NCBI GenBank assembly: GCA_016934195.1
Contig: JAFGTJ010000458.1
Coordinates: 1 to 46,985, forward strand
From: Anaerolineae bacterium
GTDB taxonomy: Bacteria; Chloroflexota; Anaerolineae; Aggregatilineales; Aggregatilineaceae
Direction of reading: 5' to 3'
Length of the DNA stretch: 46,985 bases
Positions 11,176 to 40,354 of the stretch are shown here, one piece after another. How positions within the stretch are numbered: position 1 is the first letter of the stretch; each line of letters opens with the position of its first letter. The notes under the pieces are model-generated. The model saw nothing but the letters and a program-made list of their open reading frames with translations. It made no database searches and was not told the DNA's origin. The position numbers and the translations under genes were made by a program.

Positions 11176-11268
11176 TTTTACCCTCAAGGTACGGTGCCAA
11201 TCGGGTGAGAGTGTACAAATGACTGGCGGGATACGCAACTATTGTTGGCGATGTAGGAGCAAAATCTT

Positions 11269-16038: not shown

Positions 16039-16043
16039 GAATT

Positions 16044-17180: not shown

Positions 17181-17189
17181 GATAGCTTT

Positions 17190-18890: not shown

Positions 18891-20560
18891 ATACCCTGAG
18901 AAAATTGAGTGATCGGGTGGCTTTACACGAAGTCTACCCGGATGTTGTTGAGCGCCAGCAAGCCTGGCGGGTGTTGATCATCAATCTGGTGTGGATAGTG
19001 ATCAGTATCGCCGTCGCACCGGTGTTGCTTTGGTGGGCGACGGATGGCAGCTTTGATGCGGGAACCGTCTTTTTCCCATTTTCTCTGGCTGTAGCCTTTT
19101 TTAACCACCGGTTGATCCGGCAGGGACGTTTGAGCCGGGCGCGGCTGCTGTTTGTGCTCAATACCCTGGTGTTGTGTGTTTTGTTGATCTTCCCCAACTA
19201 CCGGATCGATACGGTATTTATCCTGGTTCTCACGCTGCCGCTGACGGCTTCCGGCGTGCTGCTGCCGCGATCCGGTCTGCTCGGGATGGGCGCGATCTTG
19301 ATCGTGATTGTAGCGGTTGGTGGGTTGGTTCAGCTTGACACGGATATGCAGCCCACGCCGCTCGGTTCACCGCTGGAAAGCATTCGGACGACGATTATTA
19401 TTGTTGCGGCAATTGTGGTGCTCGATGCCGCCATGTTGTGGACATTTGTTAACAGTATGGATAGTACACAGCGTCAACGCCAGTATTGGGTGGGGTTGAT
19501 TGATACCACCCACCAGATCAGCCAGACGTTGGTCGAACTGCCGGGCGATCCGGAGGTGTTGAACCGGACCGTCGAGCAACTGCGTGACGCGCTGGGACTG
19601 TACCACGCCCAGGTCTTTCTGGCTGATCCGGCCAGTGGGCTGCCGGTTTTGCGGGCCAGCACCGGCTTTATCGGTCGCCGGTTGCTTGAAGAGGAAAGTT
19701 TGCAGAAGCTCGACGAAGACAGCCCGGTTAATGATACGATGCGGCAGAAAGACCCGATTTTGCTGCGCGAAAACTCACCCGAAAGCCAGCGCAGCGGGTT
19801 TTTACCCGCTACTCGGAGCCAACTGCTGCTGCCGCTGCGGGTTGGCAACCTGTTACCATTGGGCGTGTTGGATTTGCACAGCACCATGCCTGCTACATTT
19901 TCGGCCAATGTAACGGATGTCCTGGTAACGGTCAGCAACCATTTGGCGGCAGCATTATACGGCGCACAGCAAACGCACCAACTGCGTGCCAGTTACCAGG
20001 AACGCGACCAGTTAGTTGACCGGATCAGGGATGACCAGCAGGAATTGGCGCGCATGAACCGGCAGTTGGTTGGCGCAACCTGGGGAACGTACCTCGAAGC
20101 GCGGCGCGATGCCCTCCCTGATCTGGAATGGCGGGATGGGGCGACTCTGCCGCCGCTTGTCGAATCAGAATTGGTGGATCAGACTCTTCGTGACGGTCAG
20201 CCGCGCCTGGAGCACCGCGATGCTGTTGATGTCTTGTGTGTGCCGATCCAACTGCGCGGCCAAACCCTGGGCGTGGTCGAATTCCGGCGCGAAAATACCG
20301 AACGATGGTCGCCCGCTGCTCTGGAATTGGCGCAGGCAGTAGCCCAGCGTCTGGCGCTTTCGTTAGAAAATGCGCGCTTGTTTGAACAGGCCCAAACGAC
20401 CGCGCAGCGCGAGCAGTTGGTGAGCCAGATTACATCCCGCCTGCAAACCATGAACGATCTCGAAGCGTTGTTAAATCTGGCCGCTGCTCAATTTCACGAA
20501 GCCCTGGGAGCTACTCAGACGCGCGTGCGCCTGGGGTTCCTGGAGGAAGGTCAAAAGTAG
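18887..20560 (+). CDS. Multi-TM GAF-domain protein, no kinase domain
   Basis: N-terminal TM helices, GAF YHAQVFLADPASGLPVLRASTGFIGRRLL...TRSQLLLPLRVGNLLPLGVLDLHS, linker ELARMNRQLVGATWGTYL. ATGA overlap with upstream gene. Confidence 0.85.
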   Translation: MNTLRKLSDRVALHEVYPDVVERQQAWRVLIINLVWIVISIAVAPVLLWWATDGSFDAGTVFFPFSLAVAFFNHRLIRQGRLSRARLLFVLNTLVLCVLLIFPNYRIDTVFILVLTLPLTASGVLLPRSGLLGMGAILIVIVAVGGLVQLDTDMQPTPLGSPLESIRTTIIIVAAIVVLDAAMLWTFVNSMDSTQRQRQYWVGLIDTTHQISQTLVELPGDPEVLNRTVEQLRDALGLYHAQVFLADPASGLPVLRASTGFIGRRLLEEESLQKLDEDSPVNDTMRQKDPILLRENSPESQRSGFLPATRSQLLLPLRVGNLLPLGVLDLHSTMPATFSANVTDVLVTVSNHLAAALYGAQQTHQLRASYQERDQLVDRIRDDQQELARMNRQLVGATWGTYLEARRDALPDLEWRDGATLPPLVESELVDQTLRDGQPRLEHRDAVDVLCVPIQLRGQTLGVVEFRRENTERWSPAALELAQAVAQRLALSLENARLFEQAQTTAQREQLVSQITSRLQTMNDLEALLNLAAAQFHEALGATQTRVRLGFLEEGQK

Positions 20561-20569
20561 GAGCGATCC

Positions 20570-22807
20570 ATGAGGCGATATCGCTTGTCTCCACTGCATT
20601 GGCCGATCAACACCAAGTTGGTGGCTGTGTTCCTGTTGGCGAGTTTTTTGCCTGCGGTGATTGTCCTGGTTCCGTTTGAGGGCTACCGGCGCAATGTGGT
20701 CATCCAGGAGCAAAATGAAGTTCGGCTGGAAATTCTTGGCCCATTGGAGATTGTGCAGACCCAACAGGTATTTGACACTCTGATCACCCAGTTGGAGCGA
20801 TTGTACTCCGGCTCGACTTATTATGCTTTGTTAGAGGCATATTTAGTCACGGCTTCCGAGGCGGATCGGACTGCGGTTGAGGAACAAACCGCTCGTTTTT
20901 TTGATTTTGCGCCGTCGTTGTCCCGTGTCCGTTTTTACGATGCGCATTACCTTTCCTTGTTGGATGTGAACGCTGAAGGACGGACACCCGGTAATGCCAC
21001 GCCTGCCGATGCGTTGATCAAGCTTGGTGAATTGAGCGCGCGTGTTACTCTCAGCGAGATTTACGTTGGACCTGGCGATAGGCCGCTGCTGGACGCGATT
21101 TTTGCTTTTCGTCCAGGCGATACTGATCTGGCCGGTGTTCCGGCTGGATACATGGTGTTCACCCAGGATTTGTCGTTGGCTGCACAAGACGACTGGCTGC
21201 CCGATTTATACGGGGCGCTGCAAACATTCCCGCGTTCTAAGGAAGCAACACACGTTTTCGTGCTGGATTCGTTGGGAGGGCTGGTCGCGGCGTCTGAGGA
21301 TGCTGCGTTGTTTACAAGCGCCGTATCTTCTGACGGATTCCGCGAAGCTCAGCAGGGTTATACCGGGGTGTCCCGTTACTACAGCCCGCTGTTGGATACG
21401 CAGGTGCTCGGTTATCATGAGATGGTCTCATTTCCTGATGGCCCGGTGTTTACCTATCTGGTTGAAACTCCTGTGAGCGAGCTGACCAGCCGCGTCTGGC
21501 AGGATATCGTGCTCGTGTTTCTGCTGGTCAGCGCCGGGGGCGTCATATTGGGGAGCATCGCGGTCTGGATCGGGAACAACCTGATTTCCCGTCCGGTCAC
21601 GCGGTTGACAGAAAATGCCCAGCAGATCGCGGCAGGACGCTTTAATGTGAAGCTGCCAACCGTGACGCGGCGGGATGAGATCGGTCGGCTGAATAATACG
21701 CTCAGTGACCTGGCCGAACAGTTGATCTCGGCAATTACCGATCTGGAAGAACGTGTGGCTGTGCGCACACGCAACCTGGAAACCACGCTTGAGATCGGAC
21801 GTGTGCTGACCGGTATTCACGATATGGATACCTTGCTGGAACAGATTGTGACCGTAATCCGCGATCAGTTCGACACAATTTACCATGCGCAGGTGTTTTT
21901 GATCGATCCTGCCACGCAGCGGGCTAACTTGCGAGCCTCGACCGGGGCAGTGGGGCGGCGGCTGCTTCAGCGCGGACATTATCTTGAGGTTGGCAGCCAG
22001 AGTGTGATCGGGAGTGTGACCGCCTCCGGTCATGCCGTGGTCGCGTTGGATACATCGGCCAATCCGCTCCACCGGCACAACGAATTCCTGCCGGACACAC
22101 GCGCCGAGATGGCGCTGCCTTTGCGAACCGGGAAACGGGTGATTGGCGCGTTGGATTTGCAGAGCACTCTGCCGGATGCGTTTGGGGAACCGGATGTTGA
22201 TTTGTTTCAAGGGATGGCCGATCAGGTTACGATTGCGATTGAGAATGCTACGCTCTTTGCCGAATCGAATGCCCGGTTACAGGAAATTGAGCGCCTGAAC
22301 CAGTCGTTGACCCGCATGGGTTGGCGCGAGATCGGTCGAGGCAGCAAGCGTCCTTCGTTGTCAGCATCCGTCGGAGCTTCAGTCGATAATGGCACATGGT
22401 CGGATTTGCAGCAGAAAACCATCCAAACCGGCCAGGTTGCCGTCCAGAACGAAGGCCAACAAACGCGATTTGCGGTGCCGGTTGTGCTGCGTGGTGAAGT
22501 GCTGGGGGCGGTTGAATGGCAGGTTCCGAGCGCGCGCTATTCTAAGGAAATTGTTCAATTGGCTCATGAACTTACTACCCGGCTGGCGCTGACTGCTGAG
22601 AATATTCGTCTCTCAGATCGCAGCCGCCAGGCCGCCCAGCGCGAATATCTGGTGAGCCAGATTTCGACCCAACTGGTGGGCATGACCGATGTTGATGAGA
22701 TATTAAAGGTTGCCGTCCGCGAGTTGGGGTTGGCGCTGCGCGCGCCGCAAACGGCTATCCAACTTGTTGCGCCGCCTGACACAACCGATGATGCAGTGAG
22801 CGAGTAA
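20570..22807 (+). CDS. Transmembrane sensor: extracytoplasmic domain - HAMP - GAF, no kinase/output domain
   Basis: TM1 near N-terminus, ~270-aa extracytoplasmic region, TM2 (VWQDIVLVFLLVSAGGVILGSIAVWIG), HAMP (ISRPVTRLTENAQQIAAGRFNVKLPTVTRRDEIGRLNNTLSDLAEQL), GAF IYHAQVFLIDPATQRANLRASTGAVGRRLL. Confidence 0.88.
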   Translation: MRRYRLSPLHWPINTKLVAVFLLASFLPAVIVLVPFEGYRRNVVIQEQNEVRLEILGPLEIVQTQQVFDTLITQLERLYSGSTYYALLEAYLVTASEADRTAVEEQTARFFDFAPSLSRVRFYDAHYLSLLDVNAEGRTPGNATPADALIKLGELSARVTLSEIYVGPGDRPLLDAIFAFRPGDTDLAGVPAGYMVFTQDLSLAAQDDWLPDLYGALQTFPRSKEATHVFVLDSLGGLVAASEDAALFTSAVSSDGFREAQQGYTGVSRYYSPLLDTQVLGYHEMVSFPDGPVFTYLVETPVSELTSRVWQDIVLVFLLVSAGGVILGSIAVWIGNNLISRPVTRLTENAQQIAAGRFNVKLPTVTRRDEIGRLNNTLSDLAEQLISAITDLEERVAVRTRNLETTLEIGRVLTGIHDMDTLLEQIVTVIRDQFDTIYHAQVFLIDPATQRANLRASTGAVGRRLLQRGHYLEVGSQSVIGSVTASGHAVVALDTSANPLHRHNEFLPDTRAEMALPLRTGKRVIGALDLQSTLPDAFGEPDVDLFQGMADQVTIAIENATLFAESNARLQEIERLNQSLTRMGWREIGRGSKRPSLSASVGASVDNGTWSDLQQKTIQTGQVAVQNEGQQTRFAVPVVLRGEVLGAVEWQVPSARYSKEIVQLAHELTTRLALTAENIRLSDRSRQAAQREYLVSQISTQLVGMTDVDEILKVAVRELGLALRAPQTAIQLVAPPDTTDDAVSE

Positions 22808-22811
22808 AACT

Positions 22812-25800
22812 ATGTTACGCAGACGAGGCATTCAAGCTCAAATCGTTCAGATCATTGTCATTGCGTTGATCTTTTTGGCTGCGATTCTACAGATTGTAAA
22901 CAGCCTGCGACAGCGTGAGTCTTTGATCAAGGCCAACCGTGCTCAAGCGCTGGGGATGGCCGTTTCGTTGCATGAATCGATCAAAGCCTTCGATCTGATG
23001 TTTACAACACTGCCGGATGTGTTGGATGTCGATCAAAATCTGTTAGTGCTGCGGCTGCTGCCCCAGATGACAAGCATGTTTAACCAGGGGTTCGCTGATT
23101 TTGTGGAAGGGGATCTCTCGGTTGCGTTTGAGTCCTTGGTGTTATCCAATGGCGCGGTGATTAATCACTCGAAGCCAGAGGCGCGGAACAAAACCGCCGC
23201 CGAATTAGGGATTGCTGATTTGCCATTGGACAGGACCGTGCGGCGTGACATACCCGGTTATGCGCCTGTATACCTGACTCGTGTTGAGATTGATGCGACT
23301 GATACGTTTGTGGGTACGGAACTGAATTTCATTGTCGGCATCTATGCCGAGCCAATCGATTCCGAGCTTCGGCAGGGCCTCATCTTTTCGGGGGTAGCAG
23401 CGTTGGCTGGTGTGCTGTTGGTTAGCTCGGTGGCTGCTTACATGGTCCGGCGGGGCGTCATTCGGCCTATTCATAACGTGCAGACCGCTGCGTTAAATTT
23501 TAGCCAGGGCAAATTGACACACCGGATTGATCCGAAGGGCAGTGCTGAATTTTACAATCTGGCTGAAACTCTAAACCGCATGGCCGGGAATTTGCAGCAG
23601 TCACGCGAGGTTGTTGAAGCGCTGCTGAATAATATGTCATCGCGGGTCCAGTCGCATGATCGTGATCTCCAGATCGCCGCCGATATTGGGCGTATTGCGG
23701 CCAGCCTGCGGGATGTCGATACGCTGCTGCAAGAGACGGTGGACCAGATATGTGCCCGATTTGAGACAATTTATCACGCCCAGATTTTCCTGTTGGATGA
23801 ATTGGGTGAATATGCGGTGTTGGTCAAAAGCACGGGCGAGGCGGGGCGGCGTCTCTTGAGTTTCGGGCATAAAATTTCCGTCGGGTCGGATTCGGTGATT
23901 GGACGTGTCACGCTGCGCGGCCAGGTGGTGATGGTATCGGACACGTTGGCCGGGGAAGTGCCCTGGCAGCCTAATCCTGTTCTTCCCCATACCCGCGCAG
24001 AAATGGCGCTGCCGTTGGCAATTGAGCAGCGCGTGATCGGCGCGTTGGACGTGCAAAGTATTAAGCCGGACGTCTTTACCAGTGAGATGGTTCAGGTGTT
24101 CGGGGTGTTGGCCGACCAGCTTGCCATTGCGATCCGAAATGCCCAACTGCTTTCAGAATCGGAGCGCCGTGTCCGTGAGATTGACAGTCTCAACCGCCAG
24201 CTCACCCGTAGCGTGTGGCAGACTTTTGTGACTGCCGAGCGTGGCGGCCAGCCGTCCGGTTATCTGTATGACCAGATGAACACGGTCTCGTTGGACGCGG
24301 AAAACACCGCCGTGCTTATGCCACAGCGGACCGAAGTGCCGATTCAGGTGCGTGGTGAGACCATTGGGATGTTGGCGGCGGCTGCGCCGGGTGATGAATC
24401 GTTGACGGATGATGACCAGATGCTGGTTCGCGCCCTGGCCGACCGTGTTGCGTTGGCGATTGAGAACGCGCGTTTGTTTGAACGGACACAGCGCGCGCTT
24501 TCTGAGACGGAACGCCTGTATGAAGCGGCCCGGACGGTGAGTGGTACGTCCGCCCTGGCGGACATTTACCCGCTGGTGGCCGAACAGATCGGGACGGCTG
24601 CGCCCTCGGTAGACGCCATTGATATCATGTTATCTGGTCCCGCCCCGACCCTGATCCAGTATCTTGAGGATGTGTACCGCTGGCAGCGCAATACGGAGTC
24701 GGGATCGCTTGATCCTGAGCGGTTGCAGGTGCCCCCGCTGGAATCATTTGTTGAGGGTGGTTTGCCAGAGAATGAACCGTTGCTCTACCGGGATGCTGCC
24801 GCTGACATGGCGGCCAGTCATCCCCTTTATGCGCGATTGAACAACCGGGCGGCGCGCAGCGTGCTGATTGCTCCCCTTCATGCTGGCGGGCAGTGGTTCG
24901 GGGTGGTGGTGTGCAGCGGTCATCATACCGGCGGGTTTGAAGCGGCCTATGTATCGTTCGTGAGTGCGTTGTGCGACCAGCTTGCCATCGCCATTGAAAA
25001 CCGCCGCCTGTTTGAAGATGCCCAGGCCGAAGCGCGCCGCGCGCGCGCATTGGCTGAGGCCGGTCAGTTGGCTAGCCGGATTGCGGGCGATTATGTATCG
25101 GGTCTGCAACACTTATTTGAAGTGGTGGCCGGGCCGGGCGGATATGACCGTTGGTGGTTTGGGTTGCTGTCAGATGACGGCAGCGCGTTGGGAATGGTCA
25201 CGGAGTCGGGCATTCCGCTTTCAACCGTTGACGTTCAAAATGATCAACACGCGCTGGCCGAAGTTGCGCGGATTGGCGAGATTGTTCTGATCAACGATCC
25301 GGTTGATCACCCGGTTGTGGGACCGCAAGACTTGGCGACTGTCCAGACGTGGGGTAAGCACATCGCCATGCCAATCCATATTGGATCGTCGTTGACCGGT
25401 GCTTTGTTGATCGGACGCGGCCAGGAAGCGCCGAATCTGGACGAACGGGATATCCAATTGGCGGCAACGCTGGCAAGCCAGGTAGCCGTTGCAACCCAGA
25501 ATCAGCGCTTGTTTACCGAAGCGGAAAGTCAGGGCCGCCGGTTGCAAACGATTGTGGACACCATGCCTACCGGTATCCTGGTGATGGATACTCAGGGGAA
25601 TGTGCTGCTTGCTAATCAGAATTTGCGCGATCTTTTGGGACCGGATATGCGGCCTGATACCGGGGCACGTCCCGAACCCTATCCGATAGTGCGGACCGGC
25701 ACGCAGGACCCATATCCGCGTGACGAATGGCCGCTGAGCCAGGTGGTTAGCCTGGGTGTTCCGGTTGTGGTCGATGATATGACGGTGCTGCATCCGGCGG

Positions 25801-28800
25801 GCTACGAGATCAGTGTGCTGGCGCAGGCGGCTCCTATCACCAATGCGGCGGGCGAAGTAACGGCGGTTGTCGGCGCATTTCAGGATATTACCGAGCTGCA
25901 AGAGTTGGAGCGCGCCCTACAAGACAGCTTGCGCGAAACAACTTTACTTTACGAGGCCAGCCAGTCAATCTCGCGTGCCAACACGATGGACGAGTTGTTA
26001 GACGTGACACTGCGGCAGATTATGACGATGGCCCTGTCGCCGGACCGGGTGTATGTATTCTTGCAAGAGGCAGAGGACGACGAGCGATACACCCTTCGTC
26101 TGGTTGCCAGCGAACCCAGCGAACCGCTGGAGAATTGTGCTTTGTCCGGGTTTAGTCCAATGCTGGGACCCGAACCAATCATTGTCACCGCATCGACCGC
26201 TCCAGATGAGTTCAGGTCTTGTTTCGAGCAAATGGAAGTGGGTGTCCTGGGTAGTTTTCCACTGCGAGTACACCAGTATATCAACGGGTGGATCATGGTC
26301 GGCTTCACCGATCCCAGCGGTTTGATGACGGAACAGCGCCGGTTTATGACCACGTTGGCCGATCAAGCGGCGGTGACGGTCGAAAACCAACGGTTGTTGG
26401 GCCGGACAGAAGCAGCGTTGGAAAATACCGCCCGGTTGTACCGGGTGAGTCGCGCTATTGCTGACGCGCACGGCGCGCTGGATATCCTGCGCGCGTTTGT
26501 GAACTACGGCGCGCCGCGCCCGGTGGGGTATGCGGCGTTGTACCTCTTGATGGGGGATCATGAAGATACTACGAATACAGTGGTCGAATTGGCGGCAGCC
26601 TGGGGAGATCGAACCGCGACCGACCCGGTTGGCACGCGCTACCAGGCCGAGCGGTTTGCTTATTGGGGGCAGTTGACCAGCCGGGGAATTACCCACTTTG
26701 ATGATGTGGCCGCAGCATTCAACCTGGACCCGGAAATCCAATACTGGTTCACGATCCTTGAGATCGAAGCGGCGGCTTTGATCCCGCTCCGGTTGGCGGA
26801 TCGCCCGGTGGGTGTCATCTTGATTGGTCTGGATGAACCCTGGGTACACAGCAACAGCCAGCTTCGCATTTACCAATCAATGGCAGATCAGTCAGCTATT
26901 TCGCTTGAAAACACGCGCCTGTACCAGCAGGCCGAGCGCCGCGCCAGGCAGCTCAGCACCTCGGTCGAGATTGGCCGGGCCGTTACATCGATTTTGTCCC
27001 TGGACGAACTGCTGCCCAGGGTTGTGAATCAGATTCGAGAGGCGTTTGAATACGATCATGCCCAGGTCTTTCTGCTCAGCGAAGATGGGGTCCGGGCCAA
27101 TCTGGTAGCATCCACCGGCTCGGCGGGTCAGCAGATGTTAGCGGTGCGGCACAGCTTGCCGGTCGGATCGCAGTCGGTGATTGGGCAGGTGACGGAAACC
27201 GGCAAACCTCAAATCGCGTTGGATACGGCGGATGCGTTTGTGATCCACCGGGTGAATCCGTATTTGCCGGATACGCGCTCGGAGATGGCGCTGCCGTTGA
27301 TTGCGCGCGGCCAGATTCTGGGCGCGTTGGACGTGCAGAGCAACCGTCCGGGCACATTCACTCCCAACGATGTCCAGATATTAACGCCGCTGGCCGATAT
27401 GGTTGCCATTGCGATTAACAACGCCCGCCTGTACGAAGTCTCGCAGGAACGGGCCGAGGAGATGGCGTTCCTGTTTAATGTGACGACTGCCGCCACAACT
27501 TCGTCCGATTTGTCCCAATCCCTGGAACAGGCCGTTGAAACGCTGCGCGTGATGATGGGCGTCACCAGCGCCAGTATTTTCCTGCCGGACGAGAGCGGTG
27601 AGCACATGATCAAAGGGGCGGATGTGGGGGCAACCGGCGAAGAGATAGGACCTTCGTTGGTGTCTTTTGACCGAGGGCTGATCGGTTGGGTGGCCCGCCA
27701 CCGCGAACCGGCGATCATTGGTGATGTCGCGCAGGACCCGCGCCGTTTGCCGACCCTTGAAACCACCCAGTCGGTGATCGTGGTGCCGCTGCAAACCGTC
27801 GGGCGGTTGGTTGGGGTGTTGGGTGTCGAGAGCGATAAACTCAACGCTTTTGACGACAACGACCTGCGTCTGCTGCAAGCGTTGAGCGGTTCGTTGGCCG
27901 CGATCATCCAGAACCAGCAGTTGCTGCGCGAAGTGCAGTTGGCGAACGAACGCTTGCTGGAAGTGGACCGTTTGAAGACGAACTTCTTGGCGGCGATGAG
28001 CCATGAGCTGCGCACGCCGCTTAACTCGATCATCGGTTTTTCGCGGGTGATTCTGAAAGGCATTGATGGCCCGCTTACCGACACGCAGGAGCAGGACATA
28101 ACAACCATTTACGACAGCGGTAAGCACCTGCTTGGCCTGGTGAACGATATCCTGGATCAGGCCAAAATCGAGGCCGGTAAGATGGAACTATCGTTTGGCT
28201 ACTTCAAGCTTCAGGATGTCGTTACGGGCGTGATGTCGAGCGCCATCGGCTTGACTCGTGACAAACCGGTCCGGCTGCATACCGACATTGCGGAGAATCT
28301 GCCGGATGCTTACGGCGATGAGTTCCGCACGCGCCAGGTGCTGCTAAATCTGGTATCCAATGCGGCCAAGTTCACCCCGGAGGGCAGTATCAGCGTGTCG
28401 GCGTTTCCCATTGTGGAAGAGGGCCAGCAGTATCTCCAGGTGTCGGTGGTGGATACCGGGATCGGCATTGCGAAGGAAGATATGTACCTGCTGTTTGAAG
28501 CCTTCCAGCAGGTAGATAATTCCCTCACCCGCTCAGTCGAAGGAACCGGGATGGGCTTGCCGCTCGCCAAATCCTTGACGGAACTTCAGCACGGGCGTAT
28601 CTGGGTAGACAGCGCGCCGGGGATCGGGTCCACATTTAGCATCACGGTTCCGACCGGACCTCAACCCGAAGAGGGCGCTGAGGGTCAACGACCGGGTGAT
28701 GCGGCGACGCCGGTGGTCAGGGAAGTTGACACGCCGCTGATTGCGCCGTCGCCGAGGAGTGCTCTGCCGGACCCGGCAAAAGTGGCACTGGTGATTGAGA

Positions 28801-29540
28801 ACAATCTGGAGATTATCAGCCTGTATCGCCATTATCTCGCCAGCGCCGGTTACGAGGTCGTAGGCACGGTTCATGCCGGAAACGCGGTTGACATGATCAC
28901 GGCCTACAAACCCAACGTGGTGTTGTTGGACGTTGACGTGTCGGAAGGGTCTGGATGGGACGTGCTGGCCCGGTTGAGCAGCACCCCCGAAACATCGTCT
29001 ACGCCCGTGATCGTATCCAGCATGAACACCGATCTGGAACGGGTGTGGCAGTTGGGCGCGTCCGGTTATCTCCTGAAGCCATTTTCCGAGAGCCAGTTGG
29101 TGGATACGGTGAAAGGCGTTGAGGCCAGCACGGATTGCCAGCATATTCTGCTGGTGGACGACAAGCCGGAAACTGTGCGTGTGTTCCGTGAGGCGCTCGA
29201 AGCCTCCGGGCAGTACTGCGTGACGGAAGCGACGACCGGTCAGCAGGCCATGGATATTATCCAGCAGCCCCAGACCATTGACCTTGTGATCCTGGACCTG
29301 CGAATGCCAGAAGTGGATGGGTTCGAGGTGCTGCAAATGCTGCGCACCAATGCGCGCACGGTAGGCGTGCCGGTGCTGGTACTGACGGCGGAGGACGTGA
29401 ACGCCGAGGAACGTACCGCGCTCCAGACGACCAGTATCTATCGCAAGGATGATCTGGACGAAGAACATTTTCTGCAACAAGTGGAAATGCGACTCGGAAG
29501 CACACAGGAGAATACACGTTTTGAGCATGGTAACAACTAA
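22812..29540 (+). CDS. Giant hybrid sensor histidine kinase: TM sensor - HAMP - multiple GAF - PAS - GAF - HisKA - HATPase - REC - REC (2242 aa)
   Basis: H-box FLAAMSHELRTPLNSIIGFSR; N-box LLNLVSNAAKFTPEGS; G-boxes VVDTGIGIAKED and EGTGMGLPLAKSL. Two C-terminal receivers (VVLLDVDVSEGSGWD; LVILDLRMPEVDGFE). About seven GAF-like units, one PAS (IVDTMPTGILVMDTQGNVLLANQ), HAMP and TM helices. Confidence 0.95.
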   Translation: MLRRRGIQAQIVQIIVIALIFLAAILQIVNSLRQRESLIKANRAQALGMAVSLHESIKAFDLMFTTLPDVLDVDQNLLVLRLLPQMTSMFNQGFADFVEGDLSVAFESLVLSNGAVINHSKPEARNKTAAELGIADLPLDRTVRRDIPGYAPVYLTRVEIDATDTFVGTELNFIVGIYAEPIDSELRQGLIFSGVAALAGVLLVSSVAAYMVRRGVIRPIHNVQTAALNFSQGKLTHRIDPKGSAEFYNLAETLNRMAGNLQQSREVVEALLNNMSSRVQSHDRDLQIAADIGRIAASLRDVDTLLQETVDQICARFETIYHAQIFLLDELGEYAVLVKSTGEAGRRLLSFGHKISVGSDSVIGRVTLRGQVVMVSDTLAGEVPWQPNPVLPHTRAEMALPLAIEQRVIGALDVQSIKPDVFTSEMVQVFGVLADQLAIAIRNAQLLSESERRVREIDSLNRQLTRSVWQTFVTAERGGQPSGYLYDQMNTVSLDAENTAVLMPQRTEVPIQVRGETIGMLAAAAPGDESLTDDDQMLVRALADRVALAIENARLFERTQRALSETERLYEAARTVSGTSALADIYPLVAEQIGTAAPSVDAIDIMLSGPAPTLIQYLEDVYRWQRNTESGSLDPERLQVPPLESFVEGGLPENEPLLYRDAAADMAASHPLYARLNNRAARSVLIAPLHAGGQWFGVVVCSGHHTGGFEAAYVSFVSALCDQLAIAIENRRLFEDAQAEARRARALAEAGQLASRIAGDYVSGLQHLFEVVAGPGGYDRWWFGLLSDDGSALGMVTESGIPLSTVDVQNDQHALAEVARIGEIVLINDPVDHPVVGPQDLATVQTWGKHIAMPIHIGSSLTGALLIGRGQEAPNLDERDIQLAATLASQVAVATQNQRLFTEAESQGRRLQTIVDTMPTGILVMDTQGNVLLANQNLRDLLGPDMRPDTGARPEPYPIVRTGTQDPYPRDEWPLSQVVSLGVPVVVDDMTVLHPAGYEISVLAQAAPITNAAGEVTAVVGAFQDITELQELERALQDSLRETTLLYEASQSISRANTMDELLDVTLRQIMTMALSPDRVYVFLQEAEDDERYTLRLVASEPSEPLENCALSGFSPMLGPEPIIVTASTAPDEFRSCFEQMEVGVLGSFPLRVHQYINGWIMVGFTDPSGLMTEQRRFMTTLADQAAVTVENQRLLGRTEAALENTARLYRVSRAIADAHGALDILRAFVNYGAPRPVGYAALYLLMGDHEDTTNTVVELAAAWGDRTATDPVGTRYQAERFAYWGQLTSRGITHFDDVAAAFNLDPEIQYWFTILEIEAAALIPLRLADRPVGVILIGLDEPWVHSNSQLRIYQSMADQSAISLENTRLYQQAERRARQLSTSVEIGRAVTSILSLDELLPRVVNQIREAFEYDHAQVFLLSEDGVRANLVASTGSAGQQMLAVRHSLPVGSQSVIGQVTETGKPQIALDTADAFVIHRVNPYLPDTRSEMALPLIARGQILGALDVQSNRPGTFTPNDVQILTPLADMVAIAINNARLYEVSQERAEEMAFLFNVTTAATTSSDLSQSLEQAVETLRVMMGVTSASIFLPDESGEHMIKGADVGATGEEIGPSLVSFDRGLIGWVARHREPAIIGDVAQDPRRLPTLETTQSVIVVPLQTVGRLVGVLGVESDKLNAFDDNDLRLLQALSGSLAAIIQNQQLLREVQLANERLLEVDRLKTNFLAAMSHELRTPLNSIIGFSRVILKGIDGPLTDTQEQDITTIYDSGKHLLGLVNDILDQAKIEAGKMELSFGYFKLQDVVTGVMSSAIGLTRDKPVRLHTDIAENLPDAYGDEFRTRQVLLNLVSNAAKFTPEGSISVSAFPIVEEGQQYLQVSVVDTGIGIAKEDMYLLFEAFQQVDNSLTRSVEGTGMGLPLAKSLTELQHGRIWVDSAPGIGSTFSITVPTGPQPEEGAEGQRPGDAATPVVREVDTPLIAPSPRSALPDPAKVALVIENNLEIISLYRHYLASAGYEVVGTVHAGNAVDMITAYKPNVVLLDVDVSEGSGWDVLARLSSTPETSSTPVIVSSMNTDLERVWQLGASGYLLKPFSESQLVDTVKGVEASTDCQHILLVDDKPETVRVFREALEASGQYCVTEATTGQQAMDIIQQPQTIDLVILDLRMPEVDGFEVLQMLRTNARTVGVPVLVLTAEDVNAEERTALQTTSIYRKDDLDEEHFLQQVEMRLGSTQENTRFEHGNN

Positions 29541-31170
29541 GCGGATTCAGTTACGCTGCACCAACTGTGGACATATCATGCAATACGATGGCACGCGCAC
29601 TATGTGCCCGCGTTGTGATGAGAACATTCTTGAAGCCAAATATGATCTGGAAGCGCTCCGCCAGGGAGACTGGCTCGCGCAGTTAGCGCGCCGCAAACCG
29701 GGCGTATGGCGCTATCACGAACTGCTGCCTGTTCTGGATACCCGGCACGTCGTCACGATGGGCGAGGGGGGCACCCCGATGCTCAAGGCCCCTAACCTGG
29801 GCCTGATGTTGGGCTTAAAAAATCTGTATATCAAGGATGAGCGCCAGGGACCAACCGGATCGTTTAAGGACCGGCAGGCGGCGGTGGCGATCTCGGTGCT
29901 GCGCGAAATGGGCATCCCGTCGGTAGTGGTGGCGTCAACCGGCAATGTAGCCATTGCGTATGCGGCCTATGCCGCGCGCGCCGGAATTAAGCTGTGGGCC
30001 TTCCTGACCAGCCAGGTTCCCGGCGAAAAAATGCGCGAAGTGGCGATCTATGGCGCGGAAGTGATCAAAGTCACCGGGACGTATGACGAAACTAAAGCCA
30101 TCGCCGCCCAGTTTGCGCAATCTAAAGGGCTGTTTCTGGATCGCGGCATCAAGAGTATTGCGGCGGTCGAAAGCATGAAAACGATGGCGTTTGAGATCGC
30201 TGAGGACCTGGAATGGCGCGCGCCAGACTGGTTCATTCAGGGCGTCAGCGGCGGGATGGGGCCAATTGGTGTTGCCAAAGGGTTTGAGGAACTGCGCCAG
30301 CTTGGGTTAGTGGATAAAGTGCCCGCGTTAGGCATCGTGCAGTCGGAAGGCTGCGCGCCGATGGTTCATGCCTTTAAAGCCGGACAGCGGATCGCCGTGC
30401 CGGTTGAGAATCCCCAGACCATTATTGCCACCCTCAGCACCGGGCGTCCGGGGCGGGCGTATGAACTGCTGTGGGCGCTGATGCAAAAATACGGCGGTGC
30501 CGCCGAGAGCGCCAGTGACGAGGAAGCATTTGAGGCGCTGCGCCTGCTGGCGCGTATCGACGGTCTTTCCGTCGAACCGGCGACGGCGGTTACATTTGCC
30601 GGGTTGTTCAAGATGGTCCGGGCGGGTACGATTAAGCCGGATGATGTTGTGGTGCTCAATTGTTCCGGTCACACCTTCCCGGTGGAAAAACATATTTTGG
30701 GCGACCAGTGGGCGCACGATGTTGACGTATCGGATGTAGGGCGCAAGGTGTCTTTGCCGGAAGAAGGGCTGCTGTCGGCGCTGGAACAGGTCGATGCAGC
30801 GGTCAGCCGGGTTGTCGTGATCGAGGATACGCCCAGCGCCGCTCGCTTGATCAGTCGGATTTTGCAAACACGCGGCCAGTATAAGGTCGAAATTGCGGAG
30901 GATGGCCCTCGTGGGATTGATCTGGTGCGCCGGATCAAGCCGGACGTGATCATCACCGACCTTATGATGCCGGGGATGGATGGTTTCCAGGTAATCGACA
31001 CGCTCAAGGCCGACCCGGAATTAAGCCGGATTCCGGTGATTGTGTTGACGGCAAAGGAACTCACGCCGCGCGAACGTGACCGGCTCAGCGGGCAGATCGA
31101 CGCGCTGCTGCAAAAGGGGGGATTTTTGGATGAGGAGTTGCTGCAAAGTATCGTCAAATCGCTGCAATAG
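29527..31170 (+). CDS. Threonine-synthase-like PLP-dependent enzyme fused to C-terminal response-regulator receiver domain
   Basis: N-terminal zinc ribbon (CTNCGHIMQYDGTRTMCPRC), PLP-Lys motif GPTGSFKDRQ, ASTGNVAIAYAAYAARAGI, GVSGGMGPIGVAKGF. Receiver VVVIEDTPSAARLISRIL...DVIITDLMMPGMDGFQ...PVIVLTAKE. Start at ATG 29527, overlapping the HK stop by 14 nt. Confidence 0.93.
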   Translation: MVTTKRIQLRCTNCGHIMQYDGTRTMCPRCDENILEAKYDLEALRQGDWLAQLARRKPGVWRYHELLPVLDTRHVVTMGEGGTPMLKAPNLGLMLGLKNLYIKDERQGPTGSFKDRQAAVAISVLREMGIPSVVVASTGNVAIAYAAYAARAGIKLWAFLTSQVPGEKMREVAIYGAEVIKVTGTYDETKAIAAQFAQSKGLFLDRGIKSIAAVESMKTMAFEIAEDLEWRAPDWFIQGVSGGMGPIGVAKGFEELRQLGLVDKVPALGIVQSEGCAPMVHAFKAGQRIAVPVENPQTIIATLSTGRPGRAYELLWALMQKYGGAAESASDEEAFEALRLLARIDGLSVEPATAVTFAGLFKMVRAGTIKPDDVVVLNCSGHTFPVEKHILGDQWAHDVDVSDVGRKVSLPEEGLLSALEQVDAAVSRVVVIEDTPSAARLISRILQTRGQYKVEIAEDGPRGIDLVRRIKPDVIITDLMMPGMDGFQVIDTLKADPELSRIPVIVLTAKELTPRERDRLSGQIDALLQKGGFLDEELLQSIVKSLQ

Positions 31171-31173
31171 TTT

Positions 31174-32487
31174 ATGGCGCGAGAACCCATGACGCAACCT
31201 GTGACGCAACAAATGACAGAAACTAAAACCATTCTGTATATTGAAGATGACGAATCCAGCCGGACTCTGATTCAGCGCTTGCTATCCTATGCCGGGTACA
31301 AGGTGCTGTTGGCGGAGCGCGCGTTGGACGGGATCGATCTGGCTCAGAAACACCGGCCCGATCTGATCCTGACCGACATCAACCTGCCGGATTTGAGCGG
31401 GCGCGAGATCACGGTCCGGCTGCGAGCCGATCCGCGTCTGGCAAAAGTGCCGATTGTGGCGCTGACGGCCCAAAGCCACTCTGTTGAACGTGATAAGACC
31501 TTCGTGGCCGGGGTGACGGGCTATATCACCAAGCCGGTCGATGTGGATACGCTCACGACGCAAATCGAGGCGTATATCAAAGGCCACCGGGATAAGGTGG
31601 ATGTCGATAAACTGCACTCGGCGCAGCGGGCGTACAACGAGGAATTGGTAGAACGGTTGGAATCTAATGTCCGCGATCTCGAAGCCGCCAACCGGGATTT
31701 GCGGCGTCTGGACCGGATCAAGGACGATTTCATCCAGCTCACGGCTCACGAGCTGCGCACGCCGCTGACGACGGTACACGGTTACTGCCGGTTAGTCCAA
31801 TCGTCGGACGCGATCCGGGCCGTGATGGACCAGGACGCTGAAGTTAACGCGAGTCTGACCGGACTGATCGACTCGGTGGAGCGTCTGCACACTGTTGTGA
31901 ACGAGATCATCACCGTGTCGCGCATTGCATCGGGACGGGTGCATCTGACGTTGGGGCCGACCAATTTGTCCGAGGTCTTTGACCGGGTGATCACCGGGTA
32001 TGCCCAGGTAATCGAACAGCGCAAACTGACTCTTAAACGCGATCCGCGTCACTGGCCTCGCTCGTTTTTCGCGGACGTGTCGCTGTTGGAAATGGCGTTC
32101 GATAACTTGCTCGGCAACGCTATCAAATATACGCCTGATGGCGGAACAATCCGGGTAGACGCTCATGTCAAGCAGGAAAAACACGTCCTGGTCAGTGTAC
32201 AGGATTCCGGGATTGGGATTAATGTAGAGGATCAGGCCTACATTTTTGATCGTTTCTATACTGCGGGCGATACACAGCTTCACTCGACCAGCAAGACCGC
32301 GTTCCGAGGCGGCGGGTTGGGGTTAGGACTGGCGATCTGCCGCAACATTATCGAAGCCCATAAAGGGAAAATCTGGGTCAAGAGTGAAGGATGCGACGAG
32401 GAAAAAATGCCCGGCAGCACGTTTTTTGTCGAACTGCCGCTGCTGGGTGAACTGCCTTCACAGCCGTCGAGCCAGGTGACCAGTTAG
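31174..32487 (+). CDS. REC-HisKA-HATPase hybrid histidine kinase
   Basis: REC: ILYIEDDESSRTLIQ...LILTDINLPDLSG...IVALTAQ...GYITKPV. HK: FIQLTAHELRTPLTTVHGYCRL, NLLGNAIKYTPDGG, VQDSGIGINVED, GGLGLGLAICRNII. Confidence 0.94.
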   Translation: MAREPMTQPVTQQMTETKTILYIEDDESSRTLIQRLLSYAGYKVLLAERALDGIDLAQKHRPDLILTDINLPDLSGREITVRLRADPRLAKVPIVALTAQSHSVERDKTFVAGVTGYITKPVDVDTLTTQIEAYIKGHRDKVDVDKLHSAQRAYNEELVERLESNVRDLEAANRDLRRLDRIKDDFIQLTAHELRTPLTTVHGYCRLVQSSDAIRAVMDQDAEVNASLTGLIDSVERLHTVVNEIITVSRIASGRVHLTLGPTNLSEVFDRVITGYAQVIEQRKLTLKRDPRHWPRSFFADVSLLEMAFDNLLGNAIKYTPDGGTIRVDAHVKQEKHVLVSVQDSGIGINVEDQAYIFDRFYTAGDTQLHSTSKTAFRGGGLGLGLAICRNIIEAHKGKIWVKSEGCDEEKMPGSTFFVELPLLGELPSQPSSQVTS

Positions 32488-32490
32488 TTT

Positions 32491-33582
32491 ATGGATGATT
32501 ACACCACACGACGTGCCCGCCTGATTACAGCTTTGTTGTCCCCGGTTTTTTTGGGAATGGCCCCGGTGTTCGGCAAGCTGGCGCTGCGCGGCGGCTCAGA
32601 CCCTTTTACCGTCGCGGCGGTCCGAACGGCGTTTGCGGCGTTACTGTTGTGGGTGCTGTACCTCATTTTCTGGCGGAAGTATATTTATATCTACACGGCG
32701 GGTTTCCTGGGATGCGCGGTTGTCGGCACGATTAACGGCATTGGTTCGTTGATGTACTACAACGGCCTGAACCGGATGGACGCTTCGATGTCCCAGTTGT
32801 TGAACGGGACTTATCTGGTTTTTGTGGTGCTGCTGGCCCGGTTAGGCGGGCAGTCGCTGTCCTGGCGGACGGCGATGCGGGTAGGGTTGGCATTGGCGGG
32901 CCTGATGTTGATTACGGGCGGTGTGCGCGGCCAGGTGAACTGGTTTGGTGTTGGCCTTATGTTGGGGAATGCGCTTTTGTTCGCGGGGACAGTTGTCTTG
33001 AGTCAGCGTGTGTTGTGGGAGATGCCCGCGCAGACGGTGACGTTGTATGTCGTGACCGTGATGGCCGGGATCGTGGTGATGGCGCGGATTGCTTATGATG
33101 TGCATTGGCTGCCCCAAACCGGCGACGCGACGCTGGCAATTCTGGCATTAGCGCTGACCACCGCATTATCCCGGCTGACGTTGTTCGCTGGAGTGAAGAA
33201 TCTCGGCAGTTTACAAACCACGTTACTCGCCATTACCGAACTGGCGGTAGCGGTGGCTCTGTCGTTCGTGGCATTGGACGAACGCCTGACTACTGTTCAA
33301 TGGATCGGTGTGGGCGCGTTTGTGCTGAGCTTGCTGTTACAGGGCAGCGGGCAATATGCCGATGACGCCCCACGCGGCGCGATCCCGATGCCCAATATGG
33401 CGGGCATCGCGTTTCAACAGATCGCGTTTATTCACGCTTTTGGCAACAGTGGAATTTCCCAGGATGAACTGGACGCCATCCGGCGAATGATGGGGGTTGA
33501 AGGGCCGCTCCCATCCGAGCCACCCTTAAGCTATCCGGACCAACCGCCCGAATTACCTTCCCCTTCCGATCCAACAGATTAA
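32491..33582 (+). CDS. EamA/DMT-superfamily transporter with ~75-aa C-terminal tail
   Basis: Ten predicted hydrophobic segments in two EamA-like repeats (e.g. GLNRMDASMSQLLNGTYLVFVVLLARLGGQ; ITELAVAVALSFVALDERLTTVQWIGVGAFVLSLLLQG). Confidence 0.85.
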   Translation: MDDYTTRRARLITALLSPVFLGMAPVFGKLALRGGSDPFTVAAVRTAFAALLLWVLYLIFWRKYIYIYTAGFLGCAVVGTINGIGSLMYYNGLNRMDASMSQLLNGTYLVFVVLLARLGGQSLSWRTAMRVGLALAGLMLITGGVRGQVNWFGVGLMLGNALLFAGTVVLSQRVLWEMPAQTVTLYVVTVMAGIVVMARIAYDVHWLPQTGDATLAILALALTTALSRLTLFAGVKNLGSLQTTLLAITELAVAVALSFVALDERLTTVQWIGVGAFVLSLLLQGSGQYADDAPRGAIPMPNMAGIAFQQIAFIHAFGNSGISQDELDAIRRMMGVEGPLPSEPPLSYPDQPPELPSPSDPTD

Positions 33583-33600: not shown

Positions 33601-34632
33601 CTATTTTGAGTTGCTGCGCTGTTTCAGAAATGCGATTAACTTCTTCACCGGTTGGACGATTCCGCTGGTTTGTTCTTTTTCCAGCGGGGGCGGCGGTGCG
33701 CTTTGGGGACGCTTTAGTTGAGGTGTGGCCTCCGGCAGCGTATCGCGCCGTTCAGGAACGGGGTCTGGTTGCGAAAATGCGCTGGCAGCGCCGGTTGTTT
33801 CGGGTGTACCTGATGCGGTAGGCCGCGCGGCGGGTAACGCACTTTTCATGCGGGGGTGTGGGGCAGGCGGCATCACCGGGCGCGGCGTCGCCTCATGGGG
33901 GATTGCCGGTTGTTGGGGTGTGGATGCGGGCGTTTGCGGCGTAGTTTCGGCAGTAGGCGCAGGCGCAAAATGTTTGCGTAGGGTGGCAATCGCGTCTGCG
34001 GTGCCGATCCGCCGGAGCGCGGCGGCGGCAGTGCGCCGTACTACCGGATGCGAATCGTGTAGCGCTGCTGCCAGGGGTTCGACGGCCCATACTGCCTGTA
34101 TCTGGCCGAGCACGGCGGCGGCGTTGCGGCGCACCTGCCACGAGTCCCGCCGCAGTGCGCCTAGCAGTGTGACAACGGCGGGGGCGCTTTGTAGGTCCAG
34201 CAGCGCTTCGGCGGCGGCCAGCCGCACGGCAGGCGGCGCAGCCGCGTTGTGAAACAGGATCACGAGTGGTTCAACGGCCATCCGGTCGCCGAGCTTGCCC
34301 AGGGCGTGGGCGGCGGCAATAACGTTTTGCGGGTGGCGGCTGCGCAAAGTTTTGATCAGCCCGTTAACATCTCTGGCGTTAACCAGCCCGCCAACGTCCG
34401 TCCGGTGATCCAGTTCGTGGATGGCAGCGGCCAGACTGTGCCGGGTCTGTTCGTTGGTTTCATGGCGGAGCGCGGCTTTTAAGGCAGGAACGGCCTGGAC
34501 GGTATCCAGGGCGCGCAATGCAGTAGCGGCTCGCTGCCGGATTTCTGGATCGGGATAAGCCAGCGCGCTGATTAAGCCGTGTGTATCGCGTCTGGATTGG
34601 AGTTGCCAGACATTGGGTCGTGTGTGTGCCAC
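33601..34632 (-). CDS. HEAT-repeat protein with Pro-rich C-terminal tail
   Basis: Tandem HEAT units (AVPALKAALRHETNEQTRHSLAAAIHEL; AVEPLAAALHDSHPVVRRTAAAALRRIG). GTG at 34632 after AGGGG is the preferred start; the track uses 34743. Confidence 0.82.
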   Translation of the reverse strand: MAHTRPNVWQLQSRRDTHGLISALAYPDPEIRQRAATALRALDTVQAVPALKAALRHETNEQTRHSLAAAIHELDHRTDVGGLVNARDVNGLIKTLRSRHPQNVIAAAHALGKLGDRMAVEPLVILFHNAAAPPAVRLAAAEALLDLQSAPAVVTLLGALRRDSWQVRRNAAAVLGQIQAVWAVEPLAAALHDSHPVVRRTAAAALRRIGTADAIATLRKHFAPAPTAETTPQTPASTPQQPAIPHEATPRPVMPPAPHPRMKSALPAARPTASGTPETTGAASAFSQPDPVPERRDTLPEATPQLKRPQSAPPPPLEKEQTSGIVQPVKKLIAFLKQRSNSK

Positions 34633-34737
34633 TATCGATTCGCCCCTGGTGACATGTAAATAAATTATATATGCGATCTGGACGGATTTTGTTAGAAGAC
34701 AGGAACATACTTGATTTCTAATCGTTTTCGTGCGTTT

Positions 34738-34765
34738 TTGCAACTAGCCAAACTGTTTGTACAAT
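34738..34765 (+). promoter_or_regulatory. Putative sigma70-type promoter for the PP2C gene
   Basis: TTGCAA (34738-34743), 16-nt spacer, TACAAT (34760-34765). Confidence 0.4.
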
Positions 34766-34837
34766 GATACGGAGAAGGGCGATACTGAAAAGGACATCCG
34801 CCCTGGGCCGGAAAGTTGCAGAGATGGAGACACAACC

Positions 34838-36094
34838 ATGCAAACACGAACGTGTCCAGAGTGTGGGCACGAAAATCTGCAGCGCGCAGTGTTTTGTTTT
34901 CAGTGCGGGTGTAACCTGGACGAACCGCCGGTTGTGCGTGGTATTCACCGCGACCGTCGGCATGTTGAAGACGCGATGCGATATGTGAAAGGGCGCGAGA
35001 GCAGGCTGGAGCGCGATATTGTGGAGCATCTGCGGCAGGCCAAAGCCAAGCTGCCGCCGCCGATTGACAGCACACCTGTGACCTGTCTCCGGTGTGGCAC
35101 GTTGAACAAGCCATTGGCCGGGTACTGTATTGGTTGTGGCGCGACTCTCTCGGTTCCCGATCAAATAAACACGGTCAATCTGGTGCCGCGCGCGGCGGCG
35201 CTGAGTGATGTGGGACAGGTGCGCGATAACAACGAGGATCGTGTGGGGATGTGGGCGCGGCATGGCGTGCTGCTGGCGATGGTAGCCGATGGGATGGGCG
35301 GCGCGGTAGCCGGGGAGGAAGCCAGCCGTCTCGTGACGGAAGCGATTCAGGCCGATTTTTTGGGCGAAGCGCGCGGCAGCGAAACGTTAAGTGATCTGGC
35401 GGAAGATGAAATTTCCGATAAGTTGCGTCAGGCGGTTCGTCGCGCCAACCGTGCCGTAATGTACCAGGCGAACATGAATCCTGAGTTGCAGGGCATGGGA
35501 ACGACGATCACCCTGGCGTTTGTGCGCGACAACCGGGTGGTGATTGCGCATGTGGGCGACAGCCGGGCCTATCTGGTGGATGGGAATGAAGGTTGGATTA
35601 ACCAGATCACCGACGATCATAGTTTTGTCGAGGCGCTGTTGGCTTCCGGCCATATCACGCCGGAACAGGCGGCAGTACATCCGATGCGCAACGTGCTCTA
35701 TCGCGCGCTGGGACAGGTCGATGATACCGAATCGGACCTGTACAGCCGCAACCTGACGGCAGGTGATTGGCTGATTCTGTGCTCGGATGGTTTGACCCGG
35801 CACGTATCTGCTACCGAGATCGCCGAACAGACGACCAGCGGACAGTCGCCGGACCAGGTGGCCCAGGCATTGGTTGATCTGGCGAACCAGCGTGGCGGCG
35901 AGGATAACATCAGCGTGGTGGTCGTCTTGATGGAGAGCGCTGAGGATATCGAACCGGAAGCTCCGCCCGATCCGACTTTATACCGGCAAACGGATATTGG
36001 ATTATATCAGGCTCCCGGCGCTGAGGGCGCAGAGCGCAGCACAACAGAATTGGACGTTATCAAGCCTGATGACCAGGGTGATCGCCCTGAATAG
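34838..36094 (+). CDS. PP2C-family Ser/Thr protein phosphatase with two N-terminal zinc ribbons
   Basis: SDVGQVRDNNEDRVGM, VADGMGGAVAGEEAS, VAHVGDSRAYLV, LILCSDGLTRHVS, GGEDNISVVVV. Ribbons CPECGHENLQRAVFCFQCG and CLRCGTLNKPLAGYCIGCG. ATG at 34838 after GGAGA. Confidence 0.94.
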   Translation: MQTRTCPECGHENLQRAVFCFQCGCNLDEPPVVRGIHRDRRHVEDAMRYVKGRESRLERDIVEHLRQAKAKLPPPIDSTPVTCLRCGTLNKPLAGYCIGCGATLSVPDQINTVNLVPRAAALSDVGQVRDNNEDRVGMWARHGVLLAMVADGMGGAVAGEEASRLVTEAIQADFLGEARGSETLSDLAEDEISDKLRQAVRRANRAVMYQANMNPELQGMGTTITLAFVRDNRVVIAHVGDSRAYLVDGNEGWINQITDDHSFVEALLASGHITPEQAAVHPMRNVLYRALGQVDDTESDLYSRNLTAGDWLILCSDGLTRHVSATEIAEQTTSGQSPDQVAQALVDLANQRGGEDNISVVVVLMESAEDIEPEAPPDPTLYRQTDIGLYQAPGAEGAERSTTELDVIKPDDQGDRPE

Positions 36095-38617: not shown

Positions 38618-40354
38618 TTAAGCGGTTCCGGTGCGGATAGTTTGTTCCCGTTCGTGTAATTTGCTCGCCGCCGCTGAGAAAATGTCCTCAACCAGCATGA
38701 CTGTTTGCTCGGATATTTCGTCTGGTTCCAGCATGATCTCGCCTGTCATGTGGGTGTCGGTGGTTTGAACTGCCGCGTAATTGCCTGCGCTGATCTGCGT
38801 CATCCAATTAACGCCGATCTCGACCGATGTGGTCGTGAATCGCACTTTTTCAGCCAGGTATTGGAGCATTGCCAGCACGACTTTCGGGCGGCTCTGGATG
38901 AACCGGATGAAGACTTCACGCTGAAGCACCAGCACTTTAAGCGGTCCGTTCGCGCGCGCGCTGGCCGAACGGGGTCGCCCATCCAGCAGCGAAAATTCCC
39001 CGACCACGCTTCCCGGCTCGAAAGTGCGCAGCGGTTTTTCCTGGCCTGCTTGATCGCGCACAAAAATGTCGATTTGCCCGTCTTCAATCAGGTACATGGC
39101 ATCGCCTTTTGCGCCTTCGTGAAACAGCAGTGTGCCGTTGTCAAAGCTTTGAACCGAGATGGCGCGGCTCAGGTTTTCCAGATTTGCTAGCGATACGTTT
39201 TTGAAAATCTGGATATGGCTCAGGCGTTGGGCAAATGCGGCCAACTGCTCCGGCGTGAAGGTTTCGGCCAGTTCCGAGACGCGCATGAACATATCGAAGG
39301 TATGCACCAGCGTCGGATCGGATCGCGCCAGTTCCTCATTGAGTGCTGTTTGCATGGTGGCATCATCACCGGGGAAAACGGTTTGCAGAAACAGGCGGAC
39401 CGGCGCGTTCAGCGTGTTTCGGGTGCGCTCGATCTCGGCACGATACTCGGTAATTTCCGCCAGCCACGCAGCGCGAAGACGGTCGCTGACCGGGCTGCTG
39501 AGATTGTTTTGCAAAATACCGATGTTAGCCTGGACCACGAGCAAGTGGCGAATCAGGGTGATATGCTCCGTCCCGAAGAATTCGCCCAGTTCTCGAAAAA
39601 TCGTTTCCATCGAGGCCACGCCCAGTTGTTGGACGGCTTTACGTTCCCCGGTGGAGACATCCAGGTCCAGTCCCAGAGTGTGGGAAAACCGGCGTTTCTC
39701 CTCTAACAAGCCCTGGTTGATCTGCCATGCGATCAGCACGCCGCCGCCGATGCCGGTACCGACCGCAACCAACAGTAACATGATGCCGTTTAATTCGCTG
39801 ACGACGTTGTTATAGATGACGTGCAGTGCGATAGCGAGTCCGATACCCAGGACCGGCCACACGTTCCGGCGGGCGGCGGTGGTGCGGCGCAGGCGGCCTA
39901 ATGACAGCCCGACTAACCCGCTGGCGGCGGCGTGCATCAGCGAAGTGGATAATGTGCGGCTGATCGCAGTGCCGAGCACGGCGCTGCCCGATCCGGGCAG
40001 GTACACGAACAGGTTTTCCGACAGCGCGAATCCCATCCCAACCGCGATACCGTAGATTGCGCCGTCCACGATGTAGCGAAAACTCGGCTGGCGGATCAGA
40101 TACAGCAGGATCAGCGACTTTAGAATTTCTTCGATAATGGGAGCCGTGATTTTGGTCAGGGTTTCGTAGCTTAGCCCGGTATCAATCACAGCGTTGTTCA
40201 CCCATACCGCGATCTGGTATGCCGCAACCGCGCCCCATGCCGCGCATAACAGGATAGTATTGGCTTTCCCGGTGCCAAACACGTCCAGCGTGATGAACAG
40301 GTAGATTACCAGCGCAGGAATGATGATGGCGATAAGGTAGGCGGCAATCGTCAT
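38618..40354 (-). CDS. PrsW-like intramembrane protease fused to C-terminal cyclic-nucleotide-binding domain
   Basis: N-terminal multi-TM with APIIEEILKSL, GMGFALSENLFVY, TSLMHAAASGLVGLSLG (PrsW-type EE/E/H motifs). C-terminal IFKNVSLANLENLSRAI...LLFHEGAKGDAMYLIEDGQIDIF...VVGEFSLLDGRPRSASARA. Confidence 0.85.
   Translation of the reverse strand: MTIAAYLIAIIIPALVIYLFITLDVFGTGKANTILLCAAWGAVAAYQIAVWVNNAVIDTGLSYETLTKITAPIIEEILKSLILLYLIRQPSFRYIVDGAIYGIAVGMGFALSENLFVYLPGSGSAVLGTAISRTLSTSLMHAAASGLVGLSLGRLRRTTAARRNVWPVLGIGLAIALHVIYNNVVSELNGIMLLLVAVGTGIGGGVLIAWQINQGLLEEKRRFSHTLGLDLDVSTGERKAVQQLGVASMETIFRELGEFFGTEHITLIRHLLVVQANIGILQNNLSSPVSDRLRAAWLAEITEYRAEIERTRNTLNAPVRLFLQTVFPGDDATMQTALNEELARSDPTLVHTFDMFMRVSELAETFTPEQLAAFAQRLSHIQIFKNVSLANLENLSRAISVQSFDNGTLLFHEGAKGDAMYLIEDGQIDIFVRDQAGQEKPLRTFEPGSVVGEFSLLDGRPRSASARANGPLKVLVLQREVFIRFIQSRPKVVLAMLQYLAEKVRFTTTSVEIGVNWMTQISAGNYAAVQTTDTHMTGEIMLEPDEISEQTVMLVEDIFSAAASKLHEREQTIRTGTA

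Follow-up and report, generated by a model that had tools for sequence, protein, structure and literature searches.

Receivers have repeatedly become attached to standard metabolic enzymes in bacteria, and archaeal examples of receiver-enzyme proteins include REC-KaiC and REC-glycosyltransferase (PMC5847659). The locus described here lies in a stretch of 46,985 nucleotides from an Anaerolineae bacterium (hereafter the window), whose source assembly is 4.07 Mb and 78% complete, and it encodes a single protein in which a threonine synthase (ThrC)-like PLP enzyme is joined to a receiver. Like the metabolic-output response regulators described previously (PMC5847659), it combines a receiver with a metabolic enzyme, is restricted by lineage and is presumably under environmental control; it differs from them in that the output is a ThrC-family PLP enzyme and the receiver is C-terminal. 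Its spread, over many Anaerolineae families and Herpetosiphon, is also broader than that of the archaeal single-family cases. A sequence-only reading of the window had regarded an amino-acid biosynthetic enzyme as an unusual partner for a receiver. As a kind, receiver-metabolic enzyme fusions are already known (PMC5847659), and what stands is that the ThrC-type PLP fusion was itself found undescribed: in the literature searched, with subscription papers largely outside it, we found no description of a protein that joins a receiver to threonine synthase, to PALP or to any other PLP enzyme, and nothing on a lysine-decarboxylase wing-domain precedent.

The nearest described enzymes are the threonine synthases (TIGR00260, PRK08197; Thermus 1UIM/1V7C, Aquifex 2ZSJ, M. 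tuberculosis 2D1F), with which the fusion shares the fold-type II PLP core at ~30% identity, the zinc-ribbon-bearing layout of PRK08197, the SFKDR lysine and the STGN loop. Relative to ThrC, it adds the C-terminal receiver, has DRQ for DRG and R106 for Gly, replaces the substrate-phosphate positions, and is not the housekeeping thrC of its genome. Cysteate synthase (TIGR03844; CapA2, 9K3C) is likewise related to ThrC and PLP-dependent but acts on another substrate, and its fold matches; however, the fusion scores 130.7 bits against the TIGR03844 cut-off of 324.9 and so falls outside that family, and cysteate synthase has no receiver. With the LvrA/LvrB-type receiver-controlled kinases, the neighbouring hybrid kinase and REC-HK share a layout (NF047465, LvrB, matched below cut-off), but in this case the two kinases flank a response regulator with a PLP-enzyme output. 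The features of the locus are as follows.

22812..29540, + strand: hybrid histidine kinase, 2242 aa, with HAMP, GAF and PAS repeats, HisKA, HATPase and two receivers (Pfam)
29527..31170, + strand: PALP-REC fusion gene (P0001), 547 aa (translation, Pfam, full-length homologues)
29557..29616, + strand: zinc-ribbon cysteines C11, C14, C27 and C30, conserved at >=97% in 94 fused homologues
29752..30666, + strand: PLP fold-type II domain PF00291, residues 76-380 (Pfam; Foldseek of the AlphaFold2 model)
29866..29868, + strand: K114 (SFKDRQ), the Schiff-base lysine, at the position of K61 in Thermus ThrC (94/94; alignment)
30142..30183, + strand: rebuilt substrate loop R206-GIKSIAAVESMK-T219, in place of canonical NSxNPxRxEGQKT (alignments, conservation)
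30667..30807, + strand: linker, residues 381-427, with conserved GHTFPVEK, a variable middle and conserved EGLxxALE (conservation analysis and model)
30811..31167, + strand: receiver domain PF00072, residues 429-547 (Pfam)
30958..30960, + strand: D478, the phospho-acceptor aspartate (94/94 fused homologues)
31174..32487, + strand: REC-HisKA-HATPase protein, a receiver-controlled kinase, 3 nt past the fusion stop (Pfam)
32491..33582, + strand: EamA/DMT-superfamily transporter, candidate exporter (PF00892; weak TIGR00950 match)

The frame at 29527-31170 on the forward strand translates without a stop to 547 amino acids. This translation holds every motif quoted in the sequence-only reading, which had claimed one uninterrupted in-frame ORF with complete PLP and receiver signatures. 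Both domains were recovered above their Pfam cut-offs, i.e., PALP (PF00291) at residues 76-380 with 246.9 bits (cut-off 35, E 3.5e-73) and Response_reg (PF00072) at residues 429-531 with 70.2 bits (cut-off 30.2, E 2e-19), and the key residues were kept in all of the fused homologues. An alternative ATG at 29449 would give a longer frame of 573 amino acids, but 29527 is the better start because homologue alignments begin only at about residue 3-5 counted from it. A stop or frameshift, absence from relatives and loss of key residues, which that reading had named as grounds for doubt, were each looked for and none was found. Since full-length homologues of the same architecture occur in most of the nearest genomes and the residues are kept in 94 proteins, chance and artefact are excluded; an assembly or frameshift artefact in particular was ruled out by the 94 distinct homologues that carry the same fusion with catalytic and phosphorylation residues intact. 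PALP-REC is a genuine, conserved single protein in which a ThrC-like PLP enzyme is joined to a receiver, and receiver and enzyme in one conserved polypeptide is the architecture of an enzymatic-output response regulator.

Surveyed by domain architecture and taxonomy, the fusion recurs across Chloroflexota. Most of the 61 nearest genomes have full-length homologues of the same architecture at 50-82% identity, often in two copies: one of the window type (~550 aa) and a paralogue of ~690-740 aa, usually with a second receiver. The window's own genome has a PALP-REC-REC paralogue truncated at a contig edge (G000:C463:1-4215), followed by two stand-alone REC genes. A strong match was present in 99 of the 298 genomes of a class-wide sample, with the fusion in about a third of the sampled Anaerolineae. 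The phylum-wide sample gave a match in 35/301 genomes and placed the fusion in two lineages outside Anaerolineae, one of them the cultured Herpetosiphon aurantiacus 114-95T (fusion gene at L204:9294-10931), whose chromosome sequence has been published (PMC3368417). Samples of ~250-300 genomes each, drawn around pseudomonadotal, bacillotal and actinomycetotal centres, contained no match at E 1e-80, which, these being samples, is a weak negative.

The enzyme domain resembles threonine synthase in fold and in its cofactor site. Threonine synthases were the top PDB matches for the AlphaFold2 model (Foldseek) and are the nearest solved structures, at ~30% identity. Over the 94 non-redundant fused proteins used for residue conservation, K114, S137, N140 and G242 of the PLP site are invariant, i.e., the PLP lysine and PLP-binding loops are those of ThrC. 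The substrate site is different. Canonical Chloroflexota ThrC carries NPTGSFKDRG and NSxNPxRxEGQKT, whereas in the fused proteins the corresponding motifs are PTxSFKDRQ and DRGxKSIAAxESMKT, or near variants of these. In Thermus ThrC we take T88, N154, S155, R160 and N188 to be the contacts to the O-phosphohomoserine phosphate (substrate-analogue complex 1V7C); residue numbering was checked by alignment. Thirteen canonical Chloroflexota ThrC sequences conserve these positions; in the fused family all five are replaced, mostly by V/A/K, R/K, G, A/G/S and G, respectively, in the alignment. None of the 94 fused proteins has Arg at the R160 position (A in 66, G in 18, S in 7, V in 2 and C in 1).

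A separate ThrC above cut-off was found in 15/15 genomes checked, with the canonical motif where readable, and thrB above cut-off in 13/15; several of the separate thrC genes adjoin thrB. The fusion is thus neither the sole nor the thrB-linked thrC of its genome, and a housekeeping thrC identity was ruled out. The description as threonine-synthase-like therefore stands for the fold and for the passing of HMM cut-offs, and is weakened as a biosynthetic label by the replaced phosphate-site residues and by the second thrC, for which the sequence-only reading had suggested looking. Since the substrate-anion pocket is rebuilt, the fusion enzyme is unlikely to be an ordinary threonine synthase and probably uses a substrate other than O-phosphohomoserine.

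These data also bear on whether the protein could be a second, regulated threonine synthase, one whose rebuilt loop would still accept O-phosphohomoserine, using different residues, and whose output of threonine would be set by the receiver. PRK08197 is the best NCBIfam match of the window protein (310.1 bits, cut-off 303), and TIGR00260 is also above its cut-off (192.1 versus 167.1 bits), but the Herpetosiphon homologue (166.9 for TIGR00260 and 234.5 for PRK08197) and the REC-REC paralogue tested (153 and 272.7) fall below both. The rebuilt loop contains the basic residues R206 and K209, which could hold an anion, so that the substrate may be anionic; however, each of the five aligned positions of the phosphate site is changed. 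In three loci, the fused gene and its REC gene are closely followed by an unfused ThrC-like gene (L185:6013-7548, L190:7805-9328 and L203:10361-11548), which keeps a link to the threonine pathway alive, while a canonical thrC is present in every genome checked. Taken together, we regard a regulated second threonine synthase as unlikely, although deserving of attention.

The receiver half has the residues expected of a working phosphorylation site. D434, D478 and K530 are invariant in the 94 fused proteins, position 433 is always E/D and position 508 is always T/S, so that acidic pocket, phospho-acceptor Asp, T/S and Lys are present in all 94. Both the PALP and the receiver halves look functional. 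An AlphaFold2 model of the fusion, computed from a 26-row alignment, had a mean pLDDT of 81 and a pTM of 0.71, with both folds modelled well; linker residues 382-424 had pLDDT <50, so the model gives neither the relative orientation of PALP and receiver nor a structural route from receiver to active site. One reading of this arrangement is that the receiver merely localises or dimerises the enzyme, or takes up phosphate from the relay as a sink, and leaves catalysis unaffected. The clusters are indeed rich in extra receivers and stand-alone REC genes, but the fusion has long been kept across families, and this, like the conserved EGLxxALE of the linker, suggests coupling; we consider this reading very improbable.

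The gene order in the window is giant hybrid kinase, PALP-REC, REC-HK and EamA. The kinase stop ends at 29540, confirming the 14-nt overlap with the fusion gene reported earlier, and 3-nt gaps follow between the remaining genes; the second kinase noted on the 3' side is the REC-HisKA-HATPase gene at 31174-32487 (Pfam). The EamA gene, next after REC-HK, was absent from that account. This spacing is consistent with the four genes forming one transcription unit. Neighbours were counted by hand over 65 fused loci, 63 of which had room upstream. A histidine kinase ORF lies directly upstream in 50/63 and not in the other 13, so a kinase is commonly encoded alongside and may be the source of the phosphoryl group. 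Directly downstream is REC-HK in 23 loci and a stand-alone REC in 18 (41/65 together), and the Herpetosiphon order is kinase, PALP-REC, REC. EamA is downstream on the same strand in 25/65 and in none of the REC-REC paralogue loci surveyed. Apart from this transporter, no recurring biosynthetic family was found beside the fusion. Open frames of 1784 and 1157 amino acids in two loci (L184 and L185) had suggested larger fusions; these were rejected, since their upstream part is a wrong-frame reading over a kinase gene in GC-rich DNA. A gene for a ParA/MinD-like ATPase (KGGVAKTT motif) lies near the fusion in eight loci (L187, L188, L191, L194, L195, L207, L208 and L209).

Because the fusion is genuine, its signatures are complete and its kinase neighbours are widely conserved, kinase-dependent control of the enzyme is a reasonable hypothesis. 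The conserved neighbours, being almost all signalling genes without a conserved biosynthetic gene, would also fit a PLP part that senses a ligand instead of catalysing a reaction, with an amino acid at the PLP tuning the receiver in a kinase-REC-REC-kinase relay. However, the Schiff-base lysine and PLP contacts are strictly kept (94/94), the same site occurs in unfused relatives without kinase neighbours, and there is linkage to the EamA transporter; a sensor of this kind seems to us unlikely.

The unfused relatives were found in four genomes sampled around a cyanobacterial centre. They are 54-60% identical and retain FKDRQ, the altered loop and the PLP motifs, and no kinase neighbours were detected in the four genomes. 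Judged from sequence, the enzyme part is functional in its own right, since these relatives keep the PLP motifs and the altered loop, and the occurrence of the PALP domain without a receiver favours catalysis over a purely structural role. When the cyanobacterial-phylum sequences are left out, all fused PALP domains group in a single clade (SH-aLRT 100). With them included, one tree places two of the unfused relatives within the fused clade, but the AU test does not reject a single fused clade (p-AU 0.227); gain and loss of the receiver are both compatible with the trees. At one unfused locus (L245), an 843-aa frame ahead of the PALP gene reads as a cellulase-like protein.

On balance, we lean towards a response regulator with a ThrC-family PLP-enzyme output of changed specificity, switched by the neighbouring kinase, and hold this reading with moderate confidence. 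The upstream multi-sensor hybrid kinase, accompanied by a receiver-controlled kinase or REC protein encoded downstream, would phosphorylate D478. Phosphorylation of D478 would alter the activity of the attached PLP enzyme, control presumably running in that direction, and the amino acid on which the enzyme acts would probably not be O-phosphohomoserine. The adjacent EamA transporter of the window's lineage probably moves the product across the membrane, presumably outwards. A wider proposal, in which the kinase, a PLP-enzyme regulator with a novel specificity and a dedicated exporter of the EamA type act as one unit across Chloroflexota, i.e., a phosphorelay with a metabolite output that releases an amino-acid-derived compound upon an environmental signal, is speculative, and we put it forward only tentatively. 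If receiver phosphorylation does switch the enzyme, a two-component pathway would act directly on small-molecule metabolism. The family also represents a ThrC-family PLP subgroup with a rebuilt substrate site, yet annotation models name it threonine synthase, and reconstructions of the threonine pathway in Chloroflexota may therefore be wrong. The hypothesis is testable, since the gene is present in a cultured, completely sequenced type strain, H. aurantiacus 114-95T.

The surroundings of the operon show further regularities. Five successive GAF proteins without a kinase domain are encoded at 14884-22807 (+), directly ahead of the giant kinase; three have predicted membrane helices, and one of these is HAMP-GAF. 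Related GAF proteins precede the giant kinase in sister genomes too. On the opposite strand at 33601-36094 are genes for a HEAT-repeat protein and a PP2C phosphatase with zinc ribbons, which hold this position behind the operon in the closest genomes. Elsewhere in the window, 38618-40354 (-) encodes a protein that combines a PrsW-type intramembrane protease with a cyclic-nucleotide-binding domain, and a separate cyclic-nucleotide-binding protein adjoins it. A 530-aa single chain at 9646-11238 (-) combines a Ser/Thr protein kinase, a receiver and a LuxR-type HTH, and a 51%-identical relative of this protein is encoded near the fused gene of another locus (L137).
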